A stretch of DNA of 44,365 nt from Saprospiraceae bacterium (lineage in GTDB: Bacteria > Bacteroidota > Bacteroidia > Chitinophagales > Saprospiraceae), in the NCBI GenBank assembly GCA_020627985.1, contig JAHDFV010000004.1, positions 1-44,365 of the forward strand, given 5' to 3'. The notes beneath the pieces were generated by a model, which searched no databases, was not told where the DNA came from, and saw only the letters and a program-made list of their open reading frames with translations. The position numbers and the translations under genes were made by a program. This document shows, piece after piece, positions 955 through 29,395 of the stretch. Position 1 is the first letter of the stretch. Each line of letters starts with the position of its first letter.

Positions 955-3900
955 TTAATCCCTTATAAATTGAAGCTCCCCTGGCGGAACATCGACTTCA
1001 ACTGTCGTCTCACAGCCATTGGCATCTGTAATGGTTACGGTATGTAAACCTGCATTCAACATGGTAGCAAGAGAATCGAGTTCTCCATTATCCCACAAGA
1101 AATCATAATCAGGTGTTCCTCCTGTAGGATGGACAGTGGCTGAGACATCATTTCCGTAACATATTTGAGTGGAATCAAACTCCATGGTTCCTTCTAGTAA
1201 AGGTGGTTCAGGTACGAAGATAGAATCTACTTCGAAACAACCATTAGCGTCAGATGTTACGGTTAAATAGTGCCATCCTGGTGATACATTCTCATAGATA
1301 GAATCAAAATCAACATTATCCCAATTATAATTGTATGGATAAACACCTCCAGAAACTTCAGCAGTAACTGTACCTAATTCACCAAAACAAGCAATAGAGT
1401 CTACTACAATCATGGAATCGATATCAGGACTAGTTAATGTAGTGATCATTATTTCACCTTGTACATTACCTCCTACTTCACCTCCTAAATAAAAGGCACC
1501 ACCATCAATCATAATAATATAAGTAGTGTTAGGATTCAATCCATTTAATTCATAAGAATAACTTTGTCCACCTCCTTCATTACAACCATCATAATAATCA
1601 CAAATGACTTGATCATCATAAATTCCATCACAAATATCAGTGTTATCTGCATATACTGAAAAGGCAAATCCATCATCTGCTCCAAAGGTATTACAAGGTG
1701 CATAATTTGGATCATTTTCATCATAAATTACATTTAAGATATCTATGGTAATTGATCCACCTGCACAATCTGATTCAAAAGTAAAATATACTGAATGTTC
1801 AGGATCAGGATCAGTAGAGCCTGTACCCGTACCACATTCAGGGTAACCTGGATCAACTCCTAACGTTTCTCCAGTAGCGGAAGAAGTGTTCCAACAATAA
1901 GGAACATTGGGTTCCATGACAATCGCATTTAAGCAATTATCCGCTCCACATTGTTCGGATACACAAATTTGAAAATCTTCATTATGAAAATCACCTCCAC
2001 CATCAAATACTTGAACATAAACTTTTGTTCCCGCAGGGGCTGCTACTTCAAAGGCTAATTCAGGATTTGCTTCACAATTTAATGGTGTTAAACCTGATGT
2101 ACAATCTCCCGTATAAGCGACCATTGTTAAATCATTATTATCAGAAAAACCATTATCATCATTTCCTTCAATCAAAGCTGCTCCTGAAGGCGGCATTGTA
2201 AAGCAATACCAAGTATCACCACAATTTCCATTTCCATTACAACTTTGAACATAAGCATCATTAATCGAAATGGTTGGATATCCATAATTTTCTGTATCCC
2301 AAATACCATCTCCAACAAAACAGGATTCATCTTGAACGGTTAAAGGTATCGCATCAATACATTCATTATTTTGTGGTTCGATAGTTGTTGCATAATTTGG
2401 AAATACATCCGTAATAATAATATCAAAATTACCTGTCGGATTAATCAACTGTCCATCAACTTGAACATAATAGGTTTGACCTGGTACAATACATGAAGTT
2501 TCTAAAATAAAATCAATAGATGTATTTGGGAATACATCTGAGTCTATTAAAGATAAATCACTGTGTAAACAACCAGCACCTGCTGTATTTTCAAATAAAT
2601 ATATTTCTGGTAGTAAATCTAACAAACCATCTGGGTCAACTTCAATAGTGATGTGCCCTGAAGGAGGAGCAATAAATTCATACCATACTGTATGTTGAGC
2701 ATATCCAAATATCCCTGGTTCTCCCAATTCAACATTTGCACATTCATTGGTTTGGTTGGTTAATGTTTGACTAGAAGTGATTGGTGGGAATACCGTAGCA
2801 TCACAAAGATCATTATTGATTGGAACCGTAGTACTTCCACCATCATCAGAAAGATTTAAAGTGAAATTACCTGTTTGTAATGCTTCTGTAATAGTCGAAC
2901 CATCAATTTGAATATAATAGGTTTGGTTTGGATCTAAACAAGTTATAGTCAAATCTTCATCCCATAAAACACCTGCTCCATCCCATTCATGCCCCAATGG
3001 AATCATTTGAGTAGGATCACAAGTACCATCAGCTGAAGCATAAACTGCAATTTGTAAATCTACATCATCAGCTAGACTATTTGCATCAATAAAAACATTA
3101 CCTGATGAAGGAGGTGTAAATGTAAACCAAACTGTATTATTAATAATATCAGTACCCAAGCCAAAACCAGGGTCAGGTTCAAAAGGCTCAACTGTTGAAC
3201 AGAGATTGGAATAAGATCCTCCTATTGTTCCAGTATTTTCAGGAACGGTCCCTAGACTGGTTGCCGTTGCACAAATATCATCATTTGTAGGGAACATGCC
3301 TCCGCCATCATCAATGATTTCAATATGGAAATATCCTTCAATACCTCCAATTAAATTATCAGCACCATCTATTTGCATGTAATAGGTTTGACCTGGAACT
3401 AGGCAAGTTACTTCTACTGTTTCAGCATAAAAACCAGGATCATATTCACTTTCTATTTCAGTCATGGTACCCGTACATGAACCATCTGAAGATTCATAAA
3501 CGGCTAATTGCAAATCTACTTCATCACCAATATTATTCGGATCACTTGTTAAGTTGACTGTTAAACTTGACGAAGCATTTGCTCCAGGAGTATTGGGTGC
3601 TGTGAAGGTAAACCAAACGGTTTGATCTAATCCAAAAGCATCTGGAACGACTTCATTTGCTTCTACATCTGCACAGAAATTATAATAATCTGTTCCAGCA
3701 GGTATTGTTCCTCCTACGGGTACTTGACCTAAATCTATAAAGTCGCAAATATCATTATTTGTTGCAGCTGGATTCGCTGTAATTGGTGTAATTTCTAAAT
3801 CAAAATATCCTTGTCCAAAACCAATATCTCCAGCGAAAGTAGTTAAACCATCAATCATGATATAGTATGTCATATTGGGTAATAAACACTGAACTTCTAC

Positions 3901-6900
3901 ATCTGTAATGAATGTAAATCTCGGAGGTATTATATTCGTAATGATGGGTAAATTTACTCCTCCATCACAAGCCATTTCAGTTAATGCCCCTGTACAACCG
4001 TTATTATCAGATTCAAAAACGGATATCTGAGGAATGATCATATCATATTCTGTAAACAAATCAAATTCATCACTAGTTACTGTAACATTTACAGCGTAAG
4101 TACCAGGAGTAGCTGGTGTTTCGAAAGAGTACCATACTGTATAATCTGTATCAAAACAAGTATTGGGATCATTTATATCATTTGCGCAAATGTTATGTTC
4201 TTGTGTAGGCAAAGCAACACCTCCCGCATTGAAAGGATCACCATAAGCCATCATATCTACTGCATTACAAATTAAATCATTTGCTTGAGTTGGAATAGGT
4301 GCAATCGTAGTAATTTCAATGGTAAATTCTCCGATTTCTTGAGTAGTAATTCCTACTCCATCTGGTTCTCCATCGATTAAAATGAAGTATGTTTCCCCTT
4401 CATTTAAACAATGAATTTCTTCTATATCTACATCTAGAACTAAGTTATCATCTTGACCCACTAATTCATAGAAAGTACCTTCACAAGGTTGTTGAGTTGC
4501 TGGATCATAATCTGACACAAAAACAGCCATTTGAAGATTAATACTTTCATCATCTAAAAGTCCTCCTTGAGATACCGCTTCTATCATTACACTTCCAGTA
4601 GCAGGTGCAATAAATTCAAACCAAACTGTAGAGTCAGGATCAAAAGCATCGAGGAACATTGTATCAATACCTGGTGTTGCACAATAGTTATTATATACGG
4701 TAGTACCCCCAATACTATTTCCAATATTTGGACCAGGTTGACCTAAAGGTATCGCAACACATGGTTCATCATTACCTGTAGGTGGCGGTTGATCAATGGC
4801 TTCAATTGTAATGGTAAAGATTCCTTCTAATAAATCTTGATTTTGAATAATACTGGATACATTTGGATTTCCATCGACCAAGATGTAGTATGTTTCTCCT
4901 GGAGTTAAACATTCTGCGACCATGTATTCATCATTGGCAGCATCATTAATATCTATACCTCCATCTATAACATCATTAGAAATCAAAAAGTCTAATAAAC
5001 TTACTTCACTGTCCCAGGCTAAAGGATTTCCTAGGTTTACATCATTTTGATTGGCCGTAGGAGAACCACCACAAGTAATTCCATTTACCGCTTCAAAAAC
5101 GGCTAATTCTATTTGTAAGGCATCTTGATAGGAAGGCAGCGGAAATGGGCAAAAAGTTGTACCATCTAAACTGGGTTGATTTTCAGCCCAAATTTGAACT
5201 GCTCCTGATGTTGGTGCAATAAATGAATACCAAACCCCTCTTTCATTCGTAAATCCAAAGTTATTAGGCTCAACTTCAGCAGAAGCACAATGATTGCTTT
5301 GATCTGCTAAAACAATTGGACCTCCTCCTACAATAGGTGCTCCTAATGAAATTACATCACAAACATCATTATTTGGAGCTGGGGGAAAGCCTAACTCCGT
5401 TATATCTAATTCAAAATAGCCTTCTGTTCCATCTCCAACTAAAGCAATATTGGGATCACCTTGTACCATGATCCAATAGGTTTGATTGGGAGTTAAACAA
5501 TATAAATCCATTGATTCATCATATGAATCATTTGGAGATAAGTCTAGTCCACAGGGAGAAGTTAAAGAATGCTGTTCATCTATAAGATCTAGTGTTCCTG
5601 TACAAGTATTATCATTGGTTTGATAAACTGCGATATATGTATCAAGATTGGTTCCTATTATATCTAAGATATCTGCAGTTGAGTTGACATCAATATTTAC
5701 AGAACCACTTGCAGGAGCCGTAAATTGAAACCATACTCCTTGTTGATCTGTATCATCTGGTATTCCCCATTGACCTGGTACTGGATCTAAACCACCCGTT
5801 CCATTGATTGCTGGTGTTGCACATATATTTGATTGTGTATTGAAAGCTGTAGTAACAGTACCTCCATTGGGTGGCATTCCTAAATCTTCGGCTGTACAAA
5901 TATAATCTGATGCTTGAATAACACCATCATCATAGATACCAATACCAAAAAATCCATGTTCTTCATCAAATAAGTTTGCAACATCTAGAACATTGCTTTC
6001 ACCATCAACAAGGATAAAATATTTGGTATTTGGCTTCGGGCACTGGAGGGTCATTGATTCATCATTCGAAAGATCAATAGGATCATCAGAATCAGCCACT
6101 AAAATTAAAGAAGAAGGATCAGCGCAACCATTTGGTGCTTCAAATACTGCGGCTTGAATCAAAATATCACCAATTAATCCATCAGAAGAAATTTCGATAT
6201 CTAATTCAGTACCTACTTGTGGACCTGTGTTGAAAGAAACCCAAACGCCCCATTCATTATTGAAGACTCCTGGATCTACATCTCCTTGTGCAGAACCCGT
6301 AGCGCAAAAATTATTATAAATGTAATTATTTTCATCCCCTAAACTACCTCCAAAGGTTGTTAAACCCATTTGTATAGCATCGCAAATGTCATCATTGGAT
6401 TGACCTAAAAAAGAACCAGAACGAGTAATTCTAGCTCTATAACACCATGTACCAGGGCAACCTCCTCCCCAAGTATAACAGACTTGAGGAAGTGTAGTTG
6501 TACCATTTGGAATAGAAGTAGAAATTGATTGAGCGGCATCTCCACCTCCATCACAAATTCCAGTAAATGCACCTGCAACGCAACCCGCACCATCATTTTC
6601 ACAAGCATGAAAAGTAAAATTTAGATTATTTGGTAAATCTGAAGGACAATCATAATCCTCATCTATCAAATCTAAATTTACACTTCTCGTACAACCATTA
6701 CATGTTGTTTCATAATAATTACAGTCAAAGGTTCCAATATCTCCTCCATTAAACCACCAAGCAGGGTCACTATCACCAGTTACATCAAAAAGTACATTAT
6801 CACAATCTCCAATTGTTGTACTTACTTCATAAACTTCAACTTGAATATTTACTTGAGCAAGTATACTTTGAAACAAAGTACTTCCTAAAAGAAAAAGAAA

Positions 6901-6942
6901 AAGAAAATATAGCCTTATGTGGTAATATTGCGGTAAATTCAT
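955..6942 (-). CDS. Large secreted multi-repeat protein (about ten Cys-containing ~170-200 aa modules) with C-terminal SprB-like repeats; no recognisable T9SS sorting domain
   Basis: N-terminal signal peptide (YFLFLFLLGSTLFQSILAQ); recurring NND.CD...LG...GG....N.CA.....VWF.F.AP..G......LQ.AVYE...C.G.....C..P.QTYYI.IDG....G.F.I; C-terminus GGVYPYNYNWDN / GGTPDYDFLWDNGELDS, ending PPGELQFIRD*. Confidence 0.9.
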   Translation of the reverse strand: MNLPQYYHIRLYFLFLFLLGSTLFQSILAQVNIQVEVYEVSTTIGDCDNVLFDVTGDSDPAWWFNGGDIGTFDCNYYETTCNGCTRSVNLDLIDEDYDCPSDLPNNLNFTFHACENDGAGCVAGAFTGICDGGGDAAQSISTSIPNGTTTLPQVCYTWGGGCPGTWCYRARITRSGSFLGQSNDDICDAIQMGLTTFGGSLGDENNYIYNNFCATGSAQGDVDPGVFNNEWGVWVSFNTGPQVGTELDIEISSDGLIGDILIQAAVFEAPNGCADPSSLILVADSDDPIDLSNDESMTLQCPKPNTKYFILVDGESNVLDVANLFDEEHGFFGIGIYDDGVIQASDYICTAEDLGMPPNGGTVTTAFNTQSNICATPAINGTGGLDPVPGQWGIPDDTDQQGVWFQFTAPASGSVNIDVNSTADILDIIGTNLDTYIAVYQTNDNTCTGTLDLIDEQHSLTSPCGLDLSPNDSYDESMDLYCLTPNQTYWIMVQGDPNIALVGDGTEGYFELDITELGFPPAPNNDVCDVISLGAPIVGGGPIVLADQSNHCASAEVEPNNFGFTNERGVWYSFIAPTSGAVQIWAENQPSLDGTTFCPFPLPSYQDALQIELAVFEAVNGITCGGSPTANQNDVNLGNPLAWDSEVSLLDFLISNDVIDGGIDINDAANDEYMVAECLTPGETYYILVDGNPNVSSIIQNQDLLEGIFTITIEAIDQPPPTGNDEPCVAIPLGQPGPNIGNSIGGTTVYNNYCATPGIDTMFLDAFDPDSTVWFEFIAPATGSVMIEAVSQGGLLDDESINLQMAVFVSDYDPATQQPCEGTFYELVGQDDNLVLDVDIEEIHCLNEGETYFILIDGEPDGVGITTQEIGEFTIEITTIAPIPTQANDLICNAVDMMAYGDPFNAGGVALPTQEHNICANDINDPNTCFDTDYTVWYSFETPATPGTYAVNVTVTSDEFDLFTEYDMIIPQISVFESDNNGCTGALTEMACDGGVNLPIITNIIPPRFTFITDVEVQCLLPNMTYYIMIDGLTTFAGDIGFGQGYFDLEITPITANPAATNNDICDFIDLGQVPVGGTIPAGTDYYNFCADVEANEVVPDAFGLDQTVWFTFTAPNTPGANASSSLTVNLTSDPNNIGDEVDLQLAVYESSDGSCTGTMTEIESEYDPGFYAETVEVTCLVPGQTYYMQIDGADNLIGGIEGYFHIEIIDDGGGMFPTNDDICATATSLGTVPENTGTIGGSYSNLCSTVEPFEPDPGFGLGTDIINNTVWFTFTPPSSGNVFIDANSLADDVDLQIAVYASADGTCDPTQMIPLGHEWDGAGVLWDEDLTITCLDPNQTYYIQIDGSTITEALQTGNFTLNLSDDGGSTTVPINNDLCDATVFPPITSSQTLTNQTNECANVELGEPGIFGYAQHTVWYEFIAPPSGHITIEVDPDGLLDLLPEIYLFENTAGAGCLHSDLSLIDSDVFPNTSIDFILETSCIVPGQTYYVQVDGQLINPTGNFDIIITDVFPNYATTIEPQNNECIDAIPLTVQDESCFVGDGIWDTENYGYPTISINDAYVQSCNGNGNCGDTWYCFTMPPSGAALIEGNDDNGFSDNNDLTMVAYTGDCTSGLTPLNCEANPELAFEVAAPAGTKVYVQVFDGGGDFHNEDFQICVSEQCGADNCLNAIVMEPNVPYCWNTSSATGETLGVDPGYPECGTGTGSTDPDPEHSVYFTFESDCAGGSITIDILNVIYDENDPNYAPCNTFGADDGFAFSVYADNTDICDGIYDDQVICDYYDGCNEGGGQSYSYELNGLNPNTTYIIMIDGGAFYLGGEVGGNVQGEIMITTLTSPDIDSMIVVDSIACFGELGTVTAEVSGGVYPYNYNWDNVDFDSIYENVSPGWHYLTVTSDANGCFEVDSIFVPEPPLLEGTMEFDSTQICYGNDVSATVHPTGGTPDYDFLWDNGELDSLATMLNAGLHTVTITDANGCETTVEVDVPPGELQFIRD

Positions 6943-17754: not shown

Positions 17755-19683
17755 ATGAGATTGATTCATACAATCCTTATTTTATTCTCTAGCACAATTA
17801 CCATATTAGCCAATACAATTATTCATACTGAAGATTTTAATAATTGTTCAAGTTTTACATGGTCGAGTATTAGAGGTAGTTCTGATACTGAATCTTTTGA
17901 TGAATGGTCTTGTTCTACTTTTAACGGCAGAACATATATGGAAATATATGATAATGATGGCAATAATGATGAGGATTGGTTGGTTTCACCTGCATTTAAT
18001 TTAGACAATTACACTCAAGAATATTTTTCATTTGAATATAATAATAATACCAGTTTAGATGGTCTAACTTTAATGTATTCTAATGATTATAATGGAAATG
18101 GAACTGCGGCTGCCTTAGCATCAGCTACTTGGAATACTATATCACTTGATTTATATGATATTGACAATGATTCCTATGTTTCTAATTTTTTATTTCAAAG
18201 ATCTATTGATTTAAGTGCTATTACAGGGTCTTCCGTTTATTTAGCATTTAGATATATCAGTCCAGGCAATAGTACCACTCAAGGATGGAGCATTGACAAT
18301 GTAAGATTGACAGCTGATTATTATGAAAACATAACAAACGGAATTAACTCTGGAGACAAATGTTATGATCTAAAACAAGAATTACATGATTTAATAAAAG
18401 GTCAAAATACGATAGAATATACGAGTTCTGATTTTGATGTTTGGGATTCACATTATGTAACAGATAGAAGATTGAATGATGCAGGTACAAAATACATTGT
18501 TTATGACATGTATTCGGATAATCCAAGTGGTACTGATCCTTATGAATTTACATTAGGAGAAGATCGAGATGGTGGTTCTCCTGCGGGATCTGAAGGTGTT
18601 TTTTATAACAGAGAGCATATCTATCCGAAATCATGGTGGGGAGGTGGCACTACAAGTTTAGATACACAATATACAGATATTCACTATGTTGTCCCGTCAG
18701 ATAAGATCGTAAATTCTGAAAAACTAAATTTCCCATTAGGAGATAATGATGCAATGGGCATGGATGCATTTACTTCCATGAACGGTTCCAAAGTTGGTGA
18801 TTGTACACATCCTAGTTATTCGGGTTCTGTATTCGAACCTATTGATGAATACAAAGGTGATTTTGCAAGAATGTATCTTTATTTTTCTACTCGTTATAAT
18901 AATAATATAGATGATTGGGAAAGTAATTATTCTGATGCTATGGATGGTATTTCCTATACAGCTTATGATCCTTGGTTATTGCAAAGTATGATTTGTTGGC
19001 ATGAAAATGATCCTGTAAGTCAAAAAGAAATTGATCGAAATAATGCCGTTTATTCTATTCAACAAAATAGAAATCCATTTATTGATCATCCTGAATATGT
19101 CTTTTTTATCTGGGGAACTTGTGCTACTGTAGGCTGCCCTACAGTTTTACCTGTTGAGTTAACTTCATTTAATGGCCATGTTATTTCTCCGTTACAAAGT
19201 CAATTAAAATGGATTACAGAAAGTGAGATTAATAGTTCTCATTTTATTATTGAACACAGTAAAAATGGTTCTGATTTCACACGAATAGGAGAAGTATTTG
19301 CACAAGGAGAATCATTACATAAATTCCAATATACCTTCATTCATAAAGAAGCGAATGTTGGAAAAAATTATTATAGATTGCAAATGGTCGATTTAGATGG
19401 TTCGTTTGAGTTTTCAGAAATAATTTTGGTCAAACATGAAGATCAGTATTGGGTCCATGCATATCCGAATTACACTAGAGATCAAGTTAAGTTAGAATGG
19501 AAAGAGACAAACGATCATATGACGATTTTCTTACTAAATACACAGGGAAAATTATTAAAATCTTGGTCGATTCCACAAGAAAATCAATTGATAATATCCT
19601 TATCTGAATTTCCAGTTGGCACTTATTTGATACAATGTAATTCTGGACAAAATTTAATGACTAAAAAGGTTATTAAATTTTAG
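17755..19683 (+). CDS. Secreted endonuclease I (EndA/NucM/BsnI-like) with choice-of-anchor-J-like N-terminus and T9SS type A sorting domain
   Basis: Signal peptide; DEDWLVSPAFNLDNY; FYNREHIYPKSWWGGG...TDIHYVVPSDKIVNSEKLNFPLG nuclease motif; C-terminal YPNYTRDQVKLEW...LLNTQGKLLKSWSIPQ...FPVGTYLIQCNSGQNLMTKKVIKF. Confidence 0.92.
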   Translation: MRLIHTILILFSSTITILANTIIHTEDFNNCSSFTWSSIRGSSDTESFDEWSCSTFNGRTYMEIYDNDGNNDEDWLVSPAFNLDNYTQEYFSFEYNNNTSLDGLTLMYSNDYNGNGTAAALASATWNTISLDLYDIDNDSYVSNFLFQRSIDLSAITGSSVYLAFRYISPGNSTTQGWSIDNVRLTADYYENITNGINSGDKCYDLKQELHDLIKGQNTIEYTSSDFDVWDSHYVTDRRLNDAGTKYIVYDMYSDNPSGTDPYEFTLGEDRDGGSPAGSEGVFYNREHIYPKSWWGGGTTSLDTQYTDIHYVVPSDKIVNSEKLNFPLGDNDAMGMDAFTSMNGSKVGDCTHPSYSGSVFEPIDEYKGDFARMYLYFSTRYNNNIDDWESNYSDAMDGISYTAYDPWLLQSMICWHENDPVSQKEIDRNNAVYSIQQNRNPFIDHPEYVFFIWGTCATVGCPTVLPVELTSFNGHVISPLQSQLKWITESEINSSHFIIEHSKNGSDFTRIGEVFAQGESLHKFQYTFIHKEANVGKNYYRLQMVDLDGSFEFSEIILVKHEDQYWVHAYPNYTRDQVKLEWKETNDHMTIFLLNTQGKLLKSWSIPQENQLIISLSEFPVGTYLIQCNSGQNLMTKKVIKF

Positions 19684-24746: not shown

Positions 24747-27700
24747 TTATTTTTCGCTATCGCTTGCTTCTTTTTCTTTTCTTAACTTTTCAACTTCTTC
24801 TAATAAATCCCTAAGAACAGAGTTTGCTTCTTCTAATTCTAGGTTAACTTCATCTAATTTTTCTTTTTGCTCTGCAACTTTCATTGCTGTATCTTCTTTT
24901 ACTTTTTTCATTTCTTCCACTGCAGCTTGTTTAGCGGCATATACTTCATCTGAAGATTCTTTTTTAGCTTTCGTTATTTCTTCTTGTGAAGCTTTTCTTG
25001 CTTCTTCAGCTTCTTTATTATATTGTGCTTTTTTCGTATTCACTTCTTCTCTAGATTTCGCAATTTCATCTGCTGATGTTTTTTGAGTGAGTTTTATTTC
25101 TTCCAAAGATTTAGCCTTTGATTCAGCAACGTCTTGTGCATATTGAGCCTTCATGGTTTCAGCATCAACTTTCGTTTTTTGAATTTCTTGGGCAGCCGCT
25201 TGTTTGGTGGCAGAAACTTCTTTAGCAGATTTTTCTTTCGCAGCAGCAATTTCTTCAGCTGCAGTTTGTTTTGCTTCTAATTCAGCTAATTTAGCTTCTT
25301 GCTTTGCTTTCGCTGCAGATTCTTTAACTAATTTTACTTCTTCAGATGCTTGTTTTTTAGTTTCATTAATCTCAAGCATTGCTTTTTCTTTTGAAGCAGC
25401 AACTTCTTCTGCTAATTTTTGTTTTTCAGTAGCTGCATTTTCCTTTGCAGCACGTACTAATTCTGCTTCTTCTTCTCTAGTTTTAGAAATATTTTCAGCT
25501 GCAGCTTTCTGAGCTTCAGCTACACTTTTCGCTGCTTCTTGTTTCGCTTTAGCTGTTTCTTCTTTTGCTTTTGCAATTTCTTGGGCAGCTAACTCTCTTG
25601 ATTTTGCAATTTCAGAACCTGCCTTTTCTTTAGCGGCTTGTACATCCTCAACAGACATATTCTTAGACTCTGATTCTTTTTGCTTGATCTCCTTCATTTT
25701 AGCAGCCATTTCAGACTGTATTTCCTGAATTTTAGATTGAGATGTTTGCTGCGCTGTTTGCACATCAGACGCATATTTGGTTTTCGCTTCTTCCGAATTT
25801 GATTTCGCTTCAGTTACTTTTACTTTTGCTTCCTCATTTGCTTTTTGAATTTCTTCTGCAGCCCTTGTTCTCGCATCAGCTACTTCTTTTGCAGATACTT
25901 CTTTGACTTCTGTCTCTTTCTTTCGAGCTAGTTCAGCAGATTCAGCTACTTCTGCTTGGATTTTTTGAATTTCTTCTGCAGCTCTAGATCGAGCTTCTGC
26001 CACTTCTTCTGCTATTTTAGCTTTTTCTTCTGTTGCTTTATCTTTGGCTTCTTTCACTCGCTCTACTTCTTCAGCATTGATTTCTTGAATCGTTGTTGCT
26101 GCTTTTTTCTTAGCTTCTACCACTTCTTCTGCGACATTTGCTTTTTCTTCTGCCCCTTCTTTTTTAGCTTCCACTACTTCCATCGTCACTTCTTGCTTCG
26201 TAGAATCTATTAAAGATTTTGCCAATTGTTTTTCTTCAGCTACTTGTTTTTTTGCAGAGTTAATTTCCTCAGCGGCTCTTTGTTTAGATTCTGCAACTTC
26301 TTTAGCATTCGTTTCTTTTTCTAGGGCTACTTTTTCTTTAATATCTGCAATTTCTGATGCACTCGCTTCTTTTACTAAGGCTTTTTCTTCTGCTGCATTT
26401 CTTTTAGATTCTGCTACAGAAAATGCCACTTTTTCTTTTTCTAAAACTGCATTTTCTTTAATTCTTGCTATTTCTTCAGCTGTACTTTCTCTAACTTCTA
26501 GTATCTGTTCTGCAGCCGTTTTTTTAGAATTCACGACATCTTCAGCAGTTTTGTTCTTTTCTTCTTTTGCTTTTAAACGAGCATCAGCTATAATAGCAGC
26601 TGTTTCTTCTCTAATTTTTAATAATTCTTGTGATGAATTTTCCCGGGCAGTTGCTACTTCATCTGCGTATTCTTGTTTTGCTACTTCCAAATTTTCTTTA
26701 ACCACTAAGATTTCATCAGCTGCTTTTTGACGAGCGGCAGCCACTTCTTCAGCAGATTTCATTTTAGCTTTTTGTACTTCTTCTGCCGCTTTTTGCTTAG
26801 AATCTTGTACAGACAAAGCAATCTTCTCTATTTCTCCACCAGCTTTTTCTTTAGCAATTTTAATGGCATTCGCTTCATCTTCTAATGCTTTTTGAATTTC
26901 TTCATCTGCTCGTTTTCTCGAAGCCAATACTTCTTGAGCAAACTCATTTTTCTTAGCTGTAGCTGCTTCTCTAGAGGCTGCTACCTCTTCTTGTAATTGT
27001 TTCTTAATGGCATCACCTCTTTCTTTTTCTTTAATGATTTCTTCTTGTAACCGAGCTTTTAACTCCATTAATTCTTCTTGTAAATTTCTGACTTCTTTTT
27101 CGTCTTCAGGATTTACCTTACCTCCTCCAGCATTAGATTTTCCTCCTGCAGTTTTAGAACCACCTGATTTAGAAATACCACTATTTACAGAATTGTCTCT
27201 TTTGGCATTCGGAGATACTTTAGAAGGGTCTAATGTTTTATTAACACAACTAAAAACATTTCTTATGTCATTTTGCTTTGTAGGAGGAAAGGTTAATTGC
27301 AACCCTTTACCCGACATATTATCCAATAATAAAACTCTGTTAATTTTTGCACCTGACAACCATTTCAAAAAGCCTATATCAATTGTTAAGCTATTAGTGT
27401 AAGTTGGTACACCAGAAGAATTTTTATTTAAATCAGACATACTATTAAACTGATATACTTTCTTCTTTTTATTCACATCTTCGAAAACAACTCGATCTTC
27501 TTGATTTAACCGAGCTCCTCCTTTAGAATAAATGACCATATACAAACCACTATTCTTGTTTTCAATAATGAAATCATAAGAAGATCCAGATCGAATAGCC
27601 AGTTGTTTCTTTTCAGATTTAATGATTTGAATATTTCCAGGTGTTTTATTGTCTGCAATTATACCACTACAGTTTTGTGCTTCCATTTGATGGATAAAGA

Positions 27701-27749
27701 AAACTAAAATAAAAAGAAGCCCAGAAAGTTTGATTGAAAATTTTTTCAT
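24747..27749 (-). CDS. Exported long coiled-coil repeat protein (11/11/18-residue superperiod) with N-terminal globular domain
   Basis: Signal peptide MKKFSIKLSGLLFILVFFIHQMEAQ; ~170-aa globular region; linker GGSKTAGGKSNAGGGK; then ~780 residues of AEEVAxAKxKA-type charged repeats. Confidence 0.9.
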   Translation of the reverse strand: MKKFSIKLSGLLFILVFFIHQMEAQNCSGIIADNKTPGNIQIIKSEKKQLAIRSGSSYDFIIENKNSGLYMVIYSKGGARLNQEDRVVFEDVNKKKKVYQFNSMSDLNKNSSGVPTYTNSLTIDIGFLKWLSGAKINRVLLLDNMSGKGLQLTFPPTKQNDIRNVFSCVNKTLDPSKVSPNAKRDNSVNSGISKSGGSKTAGGKSNAGGGKVNPEDEKEVRNLQEELMELKARLQEEIIKEKERGDAIKKQLQEEVAASREAATAKKNEFAQEVLASRKRADEEIQKALEDEANAIKIAKEKAGGEIEKIALSVQDSKQKAAEEVQKAKMKSAEEVAAARQKAADEILVVKENLEVAKQEYADEVATARENSSQELLKIREETAAIIADARLKAKEEKNKTAEDVVNSKKTAAEQILEVRESTAEEIARIKENAVLEKEKVAFSVAESKRNAAEEKALVKEASASEIADIKEKVALEKETNAKEVAESKQRAAEEINSAKKQVAEEKQLAKSLIDSTKQEVTMEVVEAKKEGAEEKANVAEEVVEAKKKAATTIQEINAEEVERVKEAKDKATEEKAKIAEEVAEARSRAAEEIQKIQAEVAESAELARKKETEVKEVSAKEVADARTRAAEEIQKANEEAKVKVTEAKSNSEEAKTKYASDVQTAQQTSQSKIQEIQSEMAAKMKEIKQKESESKNMSVEDVQAAKEKAGSEIAKSRELAAQEIAKAKEETAKAKQEAAKSVAEAQKAAAENISKTREEEAELVRAAKENAATEKQKLAEEVAASKEKAMLEINETKKQASEEVKLVKESAAKAKQEAKLAELEAKQTAAEEIAAAKEKSAKEVSATKQAAAQEIQKTKVDAETMKAQYAQDVAESKAKSLEEIKLTQKTSADEIAKSREEVNTKKAQYNKEAEEARKASQEEITKAKKESSDEVYAAKQAAVEEMKKVKEDTAMKVAEQKEKLDEVNLELEEANSVLRDLLEEVEKLRKEKEASDSEK

Positions 27750-27898: not shown

Positions 27899-28834
27899 TT
27901 AATTCCGAAGTGAAGAAAGTAAATAGAGCACTGCCATACGAATAGCAACACCATTTTCTACTTGATCTAAAATAATGGACTGATCAGAATCAGCTGCATC
28001 ACTTGTTAGTTCTACACCTCTATTAATAGGACCTGGATGCATCACGATTACTTCAGAATCTAGGCTATCGAGAAGAGACTTAGAGATTCCAAATGTCTGA
28101 TGGTACTCTCTCAATGTTGGAAAATATTTGATGTCCTGCCGTTCCAATTGAATTCTCAAAACATTAGCTACCTGACACCATTCTAAAGTTTCTCTGACAT
28201 CATACGAAACTTCAACTCCCAATTGTTGAATATGCTTTGGAATTAGGGTTGGCGGTCCACAAAGACGAACATTCGCTCCTAATTTCTTTAAGCAAAAAAT
28301 GTTACTCATTGCCACTCTAGAATGCAAAATGTCTCCAAAAATAGCTATGTTTTTCCCTTTTAATTCATCATTTAAAGCCAATTTCATAGAGAAGGCATCA
28401 AGAAGTGCTTGAGTAGGATGTTCATGAGTACCATCACCTGCATTAATAATATTAGCTGGTATTCTTTTTGACAAATACAAGGGAGCGCCAGGCGCAGGAT
28501 GCCGCATGACCACCATATCTACTTTCATTGAAAGAATATTATTAACGGTATCTAATAATGTTTCTCCTTTCTTAACAGAAGATGATGATGCAGAAAAATT
28601 AACCACATCAGCAGAAAGTCTTTTCTCTGCCAATTCAAATGAAATTCTTGTTCTGGTAGAGTTTTCAAAAAATAAATTTGCGACAGTAATATCTCTTAAA
28701 GATGGGACTTTTTTAATGGGTCGATTAATGACTTCTTTGAATTCTAATGCTGTATTAAAAATGAGATGTAAATCTTCTGGTTGAAGATATTTAATGCCTA
28801 AAACATGTTTTGTACTTAATCGGTTTTGTGACAC
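27899..28834 (-). CDS. pyrB: Aspartate carbamoyltransferase catalytic subunit
   Basis: FFENSTRTRISFELAEKRL, ADMVVMRHPAPGAP-like region, IFGDILHSRVAMSN, VMHPGPINRGVELTSDAADSDQSIILDQVENGVAIRMAVLYLL. Confidence 0.96.
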   Translation of the reverse strand: MSQNRLSTKHVLGIKYLQPEDLHLIFNTALEFKEVINRPIKKVPSLRDITVANLFFENSTRTRISFELAEKRLSADVVNFSASSSSVKKGETLLDTVNNILSMKVDMVVMRHPAPGAPLYLSKRIPANIINAGDGTHEHPTQALLDAFSMKLALNDELKGKNIAIFGDILHSRVAMSNIFCLKKLGANVRLCGPPTLIPKHIQQLGVEVSYDVRETLEWCQVANVLRIQLERQDIKYFPTLREYHQTFGISKSLLDSLDSEVIVMHPGPINRGVELTSDAADSDQSIILDQVENGVAIRMAVLYLLSSLRN

Positions 28835-28846
28835 TCGTTTTTAATT

Positions 28847-29395
28847 TTAATGTTTTTTTGGAAACAACAATATTTTATCCTTCCCTTGTATTTCATCCCA
28901 TTCTACACTCACATATGCTTCATCTAAAGCATCTACTTTTATTCCTGTATAATCTGATGTTATTGGTAAATGTCTATTATAATGTCGATCTACCATGGTA
29001 ACTAATTCAATTTTATCTGCTCTACCATAATGTTCTAAAGCGGTCAAAGCAGCACGTACCGTTCTACCAGAATAAAGTACATCATCGACAAGGATGACTT
29101 TTTTATTTTCTACAAGAAAATCCATTTCCGTTTTATTGGCAATTAAAGGCTTATCCCGAGTTCTAAAATCATCTCGATAAAAAGTTACATCTAATAAACC
29201 TAAAGCGATTGATTTTGAATTTGTTATGGATAATAATCTGGAGTGAATTCTCTGGGCTAAATAAGTACCTTTGGGTTGTATTCCGATAATACAAGATTGG
29301 CTAAAATCATCATGAGTTTCAATCAATTGATGACAAAGTCGATCAATGGTAAGTTTGAACTGTAAATCCTTTAATATGGTTCTCCCTTTTTCCAT
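28847..29395 (-). CDS. pyrR: PyrR: pyrimidine operon regulator/uracil phosphoribosyltransferase
   Basis: IGIQPKGTYLAQRI, LDVTFYRDDFRTR, KKVILVDDVLYSGRTVRAALTAL. Confidence 0.95.
   Translation of the reverse strand: MEKGRTILKDLQFKLTIDRLCHQLIETHDDFSQSCIIGIQPKGTYLAQRIHSRLLSITNSKSIALGLLDVTFYRDDFRTRDKPLIANKTEMDFLVENKKVILVDDVLYSGRTVRAALTALEHYGRADKIELVTMVDRHYNRHLPITSDYTGIKVDALDEAYVSVEWDEIQGKDKILLFPKKH

Follow-up and report, generated by a model that had tools for sequence, protein, structure and literature searches.

What shape would be taken by a protein tail of about 785 residues, rich in Ala, Glu and Lys, that keeps a 40-residue beat up to the C-terminus, and what might such a tail be for? The question is raised by a gene on contig JAHDFV010000004.1 of the Saprospiraceae assembly GCA_020627985.1, whose positions 1 to 44,365 were analysed in full (referred to here as the window). 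The original prediction, made from the DNA letters, had described an exported coiled coil at positions 24747-27110, preceded by a signal peptide and a separate globular N-terminal domain. The coordinates are correct, position 27110 corresponding approximately to residue 214 of an ORF at 24747-27749 on the minus strand, and a start resembling a signal peptide and a separate N-terminal domain are both seen. The gene is laid out as follows:

24747..27749, minus strand: whole gene, 1000 amino acids (signal peptide, N-terminal domain, linker and coil with a 40-residue period)
27678..27749, minus strand: putative signal peptide, approximately residues 1-24 (MKKFSIKLSGLLFILVFFIHQMEA|Q), judged by eye from the translation; homolog N-termini are hydrophobic
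27222..27677, minus strand: N-terminal domain, approximately residues 25-176, mostly beta-strand in the AlphaFold2 model, with near-invariant C27 and C168
27105..27221, minus strand: linker rich in Gly, Ser, Lys and Asn, approximately residues 177-215, delimited from the sequence; poorly conserved, with low pLDDT at 183-219
24750..27104, minus strand: coil, residues 216-1000, 19.6 units of 40 residues (11+11+18), from periodicity and helix prediction

The signal-peptide-like start ends in MEA|Q and, on inspection by eye, contains no lipobox; read from its sequence, the protein is probably exported. AlphaFold2 models the N-terminal domain, about 150 residues long, as mostly beta strands plus two helices (mean pLDDT 91, pTM 0.79). 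The domain has no significant match in Pfam, NCBIfam, PHROGs or PDB sequences, and Foldseek found no PDB fold at E<=1e-3; a single match came from the viral library (A0A1B0WMU9, E 8e-5, TM 0.49). C27 and C168 are invariant or nearly so among homologs, which suggests a disulfide stabilising the domain and would fit an oxidising compartment. In one genome (G029) the domain occurs twice in a 1309-residue protein with TPR repeats, a CHAT (caspase-like) domain and a hydrophobic C-terminal segment (L053:7855-11781, minus strand), making it a reusable module.

The 40-residue period of the coil

Autocorrelation of residues 216-1000 with BLOSUM62 scores peaked at lag 40 (z=17.5), above lags 80 (z=13.6), 120 (z=11.7), 18 (z=10.9), 29 (z=10.6), 11 (z=9.6) and 7 (z=3.8). 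In the Fourier spectrum the peaks fall on harmonics of 40, with the strongest at 3.63 residues (40/11) and others at 5.71 (40/7), 2.22 (40/18), 9.99 (40/4) and 13.39 (40/3). For large apolar, all apolar and acidic residues, power at 3.63 ranges from 31 to 60, against a 99% limit of 10-12 in shuffled sequences, while the same classes reach only 0.0-1.8 at 3.5 and 0.9-4.3 at 3.667. The coil is therefore neither a purely heptad structure nor one lacking a 40-residue peak, and the mixture of hendecads and heptads that had been proposed, with 40 residues in 11 turns, is supported. Large apolar residues occupy phases 7, 18 and 29 of the unit, at spacings of 11, 11 and 18, bearing out the predicted 11+11+18 superperiod. 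A 40-phase model trained on the coil itself scored 500, compared with 247-263 for shuffled sequences and 219-355 for the other periods tested, and detected no phase jump over the 19.6 units. With a family-wide template the unit boundary may move by 11 in mid-coil, leaving the 40-residue beat unaffected; unit boundaries are thus partly conventional and the beat is not. The 11/29 jumps returned by a family-trained 40-phase model were judged spurious.

Among 201 unrelated ORFs of at least 400 amino acids from the same loci, one had a lag-40 z above 5. This exception (L115:14172-15626, minus strand, 485 amino acids) contains strong short-period repeats, with a best lag of 6 and a lag-40 z of 11.8. 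SMC, considered as a coiled-coil control, gave hits only in short fragments. A recent tandem array at the DNA level was rejected as the origin of the period: TRF sees no 120-bp array and the protein units average only 23% identity. Moreover, homologous units resemble each other rather than their neighbours: of 1355 units from homologs, 1125 best match the unit with the same number in the window protein.

Distribution and conservation of register and length

A search of GTDB genomes found 98 relatives, 80 of which were kept; nearly all are titled Saprospiraceae, for example Phaeodactylibacter xiamenensis, P. luteus and Lewinella cohaerens. Homologs of the rod are present in 80 loci (genome contigs) and in 25 of 61 relatives. 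Of 299 genomes in the order, 37 were matched by a profile of the N-terminal domain; 36 of these belong to the window's own family and the other to a second one. A class-wide genome sample yielded just three matches, all in the window's own family. The protein was thus found only in Saprospiraceae and one sister family. Coil and domain profiles match the same genomes apart from two domain-only cases, one a gene cut by the end of its contig and the other the most diverged relative; the two parts therefore occur together in a single protein. In one genome (G004) the gene is present twice, on different contigs (L028 and L029), and each copy is 74% identical to the window protein. Sequence and profile searches of Pfam, NCBIfam, PHROGs and the PDB returned no homolog of known function, and the rod appears to belong to no family in these libraries.

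Two pyrimidine genes lie upstream of the rod gene in the window:

27899..28834, minus strand: pyrB (aspartate carbamoyltransferase; Pfam OTCace_N and OTCace), immediately upstream of the rod gene
28847..29395, minus strand: pyrR-like phosphoribosyltransferase (Pfam Pribosyltran), upstream of pyrB

With the window included, 50 loci have a pyrB homolog upstream in the same orientation and at a similar distance, and 47 have pyrR; these genes may merely mark the ancestral position of the rod gene. A terminator-like site on the strand of the rod gene lies inside pyrB (27952-27927), one such site being found where 0.7 are expected by chance. In 28 loci the downstream gene combines DUF4369 or DUF5106 with a TlpA-like thioredoxin-like domain (for example L099:11063-12499, with a CGHC motif); the window has an AraC/PAS regulator there instead. 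A thiol oxidoreductase gene adjacent to one whose product has a conserved cysteine pair would agree with export, though oxidoreductases of this kind are widespread in Bacteroidota. Elsewhere in the window, 17755-19683 (plus strand) encodes a secreted endonuclease I with a C-terminal sorting domain of the type IX secretion system (T9SS), evidence that the organism has such a system. The 1995-residue product of 955-6942 (minus strand) looks like a secreted surface protein from its matches to T9SS-associated galactose-binding, purple acid phosphatase N-terminal, fn3 and SprB-repeat domains.

The periodicity is a property of the whole family. Lag 40 is the best lag in 73 of 74 full-length homologs (the exception, L051, being the most diverged), and the median apolar period across the 74 is 3.635 (IQR 3.6345-3.636). 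Their 56,459 coil residues include only five Pro, one Cys and no Trp. Length is conserved as well. Measured from E219 to I958, the coil is exactly 740 residues long in 29 sequences out of 73, and all but one of the 73 lie within 711-784; the remaining coil (L122) has 642 residues, 98 fewer than 740, or 27 turns (27 x 40/11 = 98.2). Variation in coil length between conserved anchors is confined to three sites, where the differences are -29, -22, -18, -11, +11, +15, +18, +22 and +29. Sites 1 and 2 are positioned as follows:

26130..26276, minus strand: indel-tolerant site 1, residues 492-540; homologs differ by -29, -22, -18, -11, 0 or +15
24996..25226, minus strand: indel-tolerant site 2, residues 842-918; homologs differ by -11, 0, +11, +22 or +29

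By parsimony, at least 21 indel events took place in the coil, with sizes of only 11, 15, 18, 22 and 29. Each of these sizes corresponds to complete helical turns to within half a residue, whereas roughly 27% of all possible sizes would do so. The tally leaves aside gaps of 26 and 4 residues in L039 and small gaps in L051 and near the C-terminus, which were seen in a smaller first alignment. Recombination between repeat units could account for part of the in-phase indels and would yield the same sizes, so that they are evidence of a kept register rather than proof of selection. Across homologs the rod gene has dN values of 0.12-0.31 (coil 0.12-0.26, globular domain 0.13-0.31), with synonymous differences saturated or nearly so. 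The coil thus evolves about as slowly as the globular domain, and because both its sequence and its length are kept, it probably does more than act as a simple spacer. The most likely reading of these patterns is that selection holds both the length of the coil and its helical register.

Packing and possible role of the rod

Taken together, the protein is probably an exported hendecad-heptad rod, with an exact 40/11 superperiod, restricted to one bacterial lineage. Each turn of an undistorted alpha-helix takes 3.63 residues, and coils built of hendecads supercoil only very slightly (PMC9858780). An apolar stripe recurring every 40/11 = 3.636 residues practically follows this pitch, from which one would expect a rod that is close to straight and supercoils little if at all, in line with the nearly straight coil originally envisaged. 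At 0.15 nm per residue, 740-785 residues in a continuous helix would extend over 111-118 nm, so that the proposed length of over 100 nm holds if the coil is fully helical. AlphaFold2 models the coil monomer as helix from residue 215 to 996 with short breaks at 399-401 and 696-700, at low confidence (mean pLDDT 62, pTM 0.27).

The unit was mapped over all homologs onto a helical wheel of 99 degrees per residue. Ala, Val and Ile form an apolar arc at 279-351 degrees, phases 18 and 29 being apolar in 90% and 97% of cases. Proceeding around the wheel, there follow a basic stripe at 0-45 degrees, an Ala stripe at 54-90, acidic residues at 108-162, a variable back at 171-225 and an acidic stripe at 234-261. 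The arc of lowest entropy, from 261 to 36 degrees, covers the apolar core and the basic stripe. With the core centred at 320 or 330 degrees, the flanks are opposite in sign, acid on the left and base on the right, in all 73 sequences; with the core at 347 degrees the same holds for 72-73 of 73, and the effect is weaker. An initial charge analysis (core centre 348 degrees, wide flanks) was uninformative, and the family wheel was used in its place. With acid on one flank and base on the other, parallel chains would attract each other and antiparallel chains repel, and the charge stripes beside the core appear to favour parallel packing. The Ala stripe lies far from the core centre; a simple dimer may therefore not be the end state.

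The reading that we favour, and consider reasonably probable, is an exported, parallel and nearly straight rod of about 110-118 nm that serves as a fixed-length strut in the cell envelope. Removal of the signal peptide would leave a disulfide-stabilised N-terminal domain, joined by a flexible linker to a single, almost continuous alpha-helix of some 740-785 residues. Two or more such chains would lie side by side in parallel, with little or no supercoil, around a core of Ala and Val/Ile, the acidic stripe of one chain pairing with the basic stripe of the other, and the additional Ala stripe, on the far side of the basic stripe, could mediate lateral packing. The product would be a fixed-length stay for which the N-terminal domains provide attachment points. 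Since the rod is too long to span the periplasm end-on, it would either run parallel to the wall within the periplasm or project from the cell's outer surface. The searches found no partner, anchor or membrane domain for it.

The main structural rival is an antiparallel hairpin or bundle, in which the helix would fold back near residue 698, or perhaps 400, giving a shorter and thicker rod of about 44 nm. The breaks in the AlphaFold2 model leave segments of 294 and 296 residues, indel sites 1 and 2 (centres near 516 and 880) are roughly symmetrical about residue 698, and both 399-404 and 699-702 keep a Ser/Thr with Glu/Asp after it, in the manner of helix caps. That model is of low confidence, however, and no conserved Pro or Gly is present at the would-be turns. 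Antiparallel packing would also set base against base and acid against acid, and indels at site 1 are not compensated at site 2 within the same protein, all of which makes the hairpin unlikely. It is more doubtful still that the coil acts as a single charged helix of the ER/K type, a stiff monomeric lever or spacer. The richness in E, K, R and A and the enrichment of K-to-E pairs at i+4 (z=5.9) would suit such a helix, but it needs neither a sharp apolar stripe nor a basic stripe between apolar residues, and it leaves unexplained why conservation is highest on the apolar face and why indels are strictly phase-keeping. Group 3 LEA proteins also contain 11-residue motifs rich in Ala, Glu and Lys. 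A mostly disordered stress-protection protein of this kind is nonetheless highly improbable: no Pfam LEA family (LEA_4) matches at E<=1, and the long-range 40-residue phase, the scarcity of Pro and the unit-specific conservation described above point to an ordered rod.

Location and higher-order assembly allow two further readings. A fibre or adhesin on the cell surface, beyond the outer membrane, in which the N-terminal domain served as binding tip or anchor, would agree with a length exceeding that of the periplasm, with the signal peptide and with the order of domain and long stalk. Against this, Pfam and NCBIfam detect on the rod neither a T9SS sorting domain (Por_Secre_tail and similar), which the same test does detect on the product of 17755-19683, nor any other outer-membrane export signal, and the N-terminal domain is conserved as much as the coil, unlike many adhesive tips. 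We regard a surface fibre as having a small but real chance of being correct. Somewhat less probable is a lineage-specific envelope cytoskeleton, in which parallel 110-nm rods would pack laterally through the second, Ala-lined face into periplasmic sheets or cables. Such a system would be the extracytoplasmic equivalent of intermediate-filament-like proteins, its 40-residue unit determining how long the struts are. If the rod is indeed an envelope strut, as we prefer to think, Saprospiraceae would own a fixed-length scaffold beyond the cytoplasmic membrane that the families in the libraries searched do not describe. Relative to the original prediction, the family itself, its conserved length, the in-phase indels, the charge stripes favouring parallel chains, the gene neighbourhood and the conservation of the coil sequence are new.

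Comparison with known coiled-coil systems

By analogy, the nearest counterparts would seem to be the Scy and FilP rods of Streptomyces and the coiled-coil spacers of cell envelopes. Scy and FilP are long, hendecad-rich rods with an Ala-rich core, the coil of Scy exceeding 1000 residues, and dimeric hendecad cores need Ala (PMC9858780). For FilP, a filament-building parallel dimer has been proposed (PMC6599971), and a heptad/hendecad superperiod has been reported for this class (Walshaw et al. 2010, as cited in PMC3718342). The window protein shares the extended hendecad coil and the Ala-rich core, with a 40/11 period and Val/Ile beside Ala. Scy and FilP, which are related to DivIVA, are cytoplasmic and carry an N-terminal DivIVA-like motif, whereas the rod begins with what looks by eye like a signal peptide, which would speak against a place in the cytoplasm, and has an unrelated beta domain, a 40-residue period and a Saprospiraceae host. 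The superperiod of Walshaw and colleagues is said to be 51 residues long. Pfam detects no DivIVA match in the rod protein, and PF05103 has no match anywhere in the window's genome, which is about 83% complete.

Deinococcus SlpA/OmpM offers a second likeness, an exported long coiled coil with a proposed role as envelope spacer. The SlpA coil measures about 28 nm (PMC9388160), and that of the rod would be approximately four times longer. SlpA/OmpM proteins form trimers and have an SLH domain, an outer-membrane barrel and a heptad-based coil, none of which was found in the rod; Pfam gave no match to an SLH domain or a C-terminal beta-barrel, and the coil occupies the C-terminus. The peripheral stalks of rotary ATPases (F-type b2, A-type EG) are hendecad-based, Ala-rich, right-handed parallel dimers (PMC6131620). 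They differ in being short (the A-type EG coil is 140 A) and membrane-bound, and PMC6131620 describes no 40-residue superperiod in them. The apolar periodicity expected of a hendecad-based straight coiled coil, about 3.63-3.67 with no heptad peak, is what the rod displays. Such straight coils are under-represented among characterised proteins, and a near-perfect 40/11 periodicity over some 780 residues provides a natural test case for coiled coils that do not supercoil. Conserved length is a mark of coiled-coil spacers, and sequence conservation along a coil has been linked to roles beyond that of a bare spacer (Truebestein and Leonard, PMC5082667). Set against the spacers and rulers of that review, the rod is distinguished by a sequence that is also conserved, over almost its whole length.
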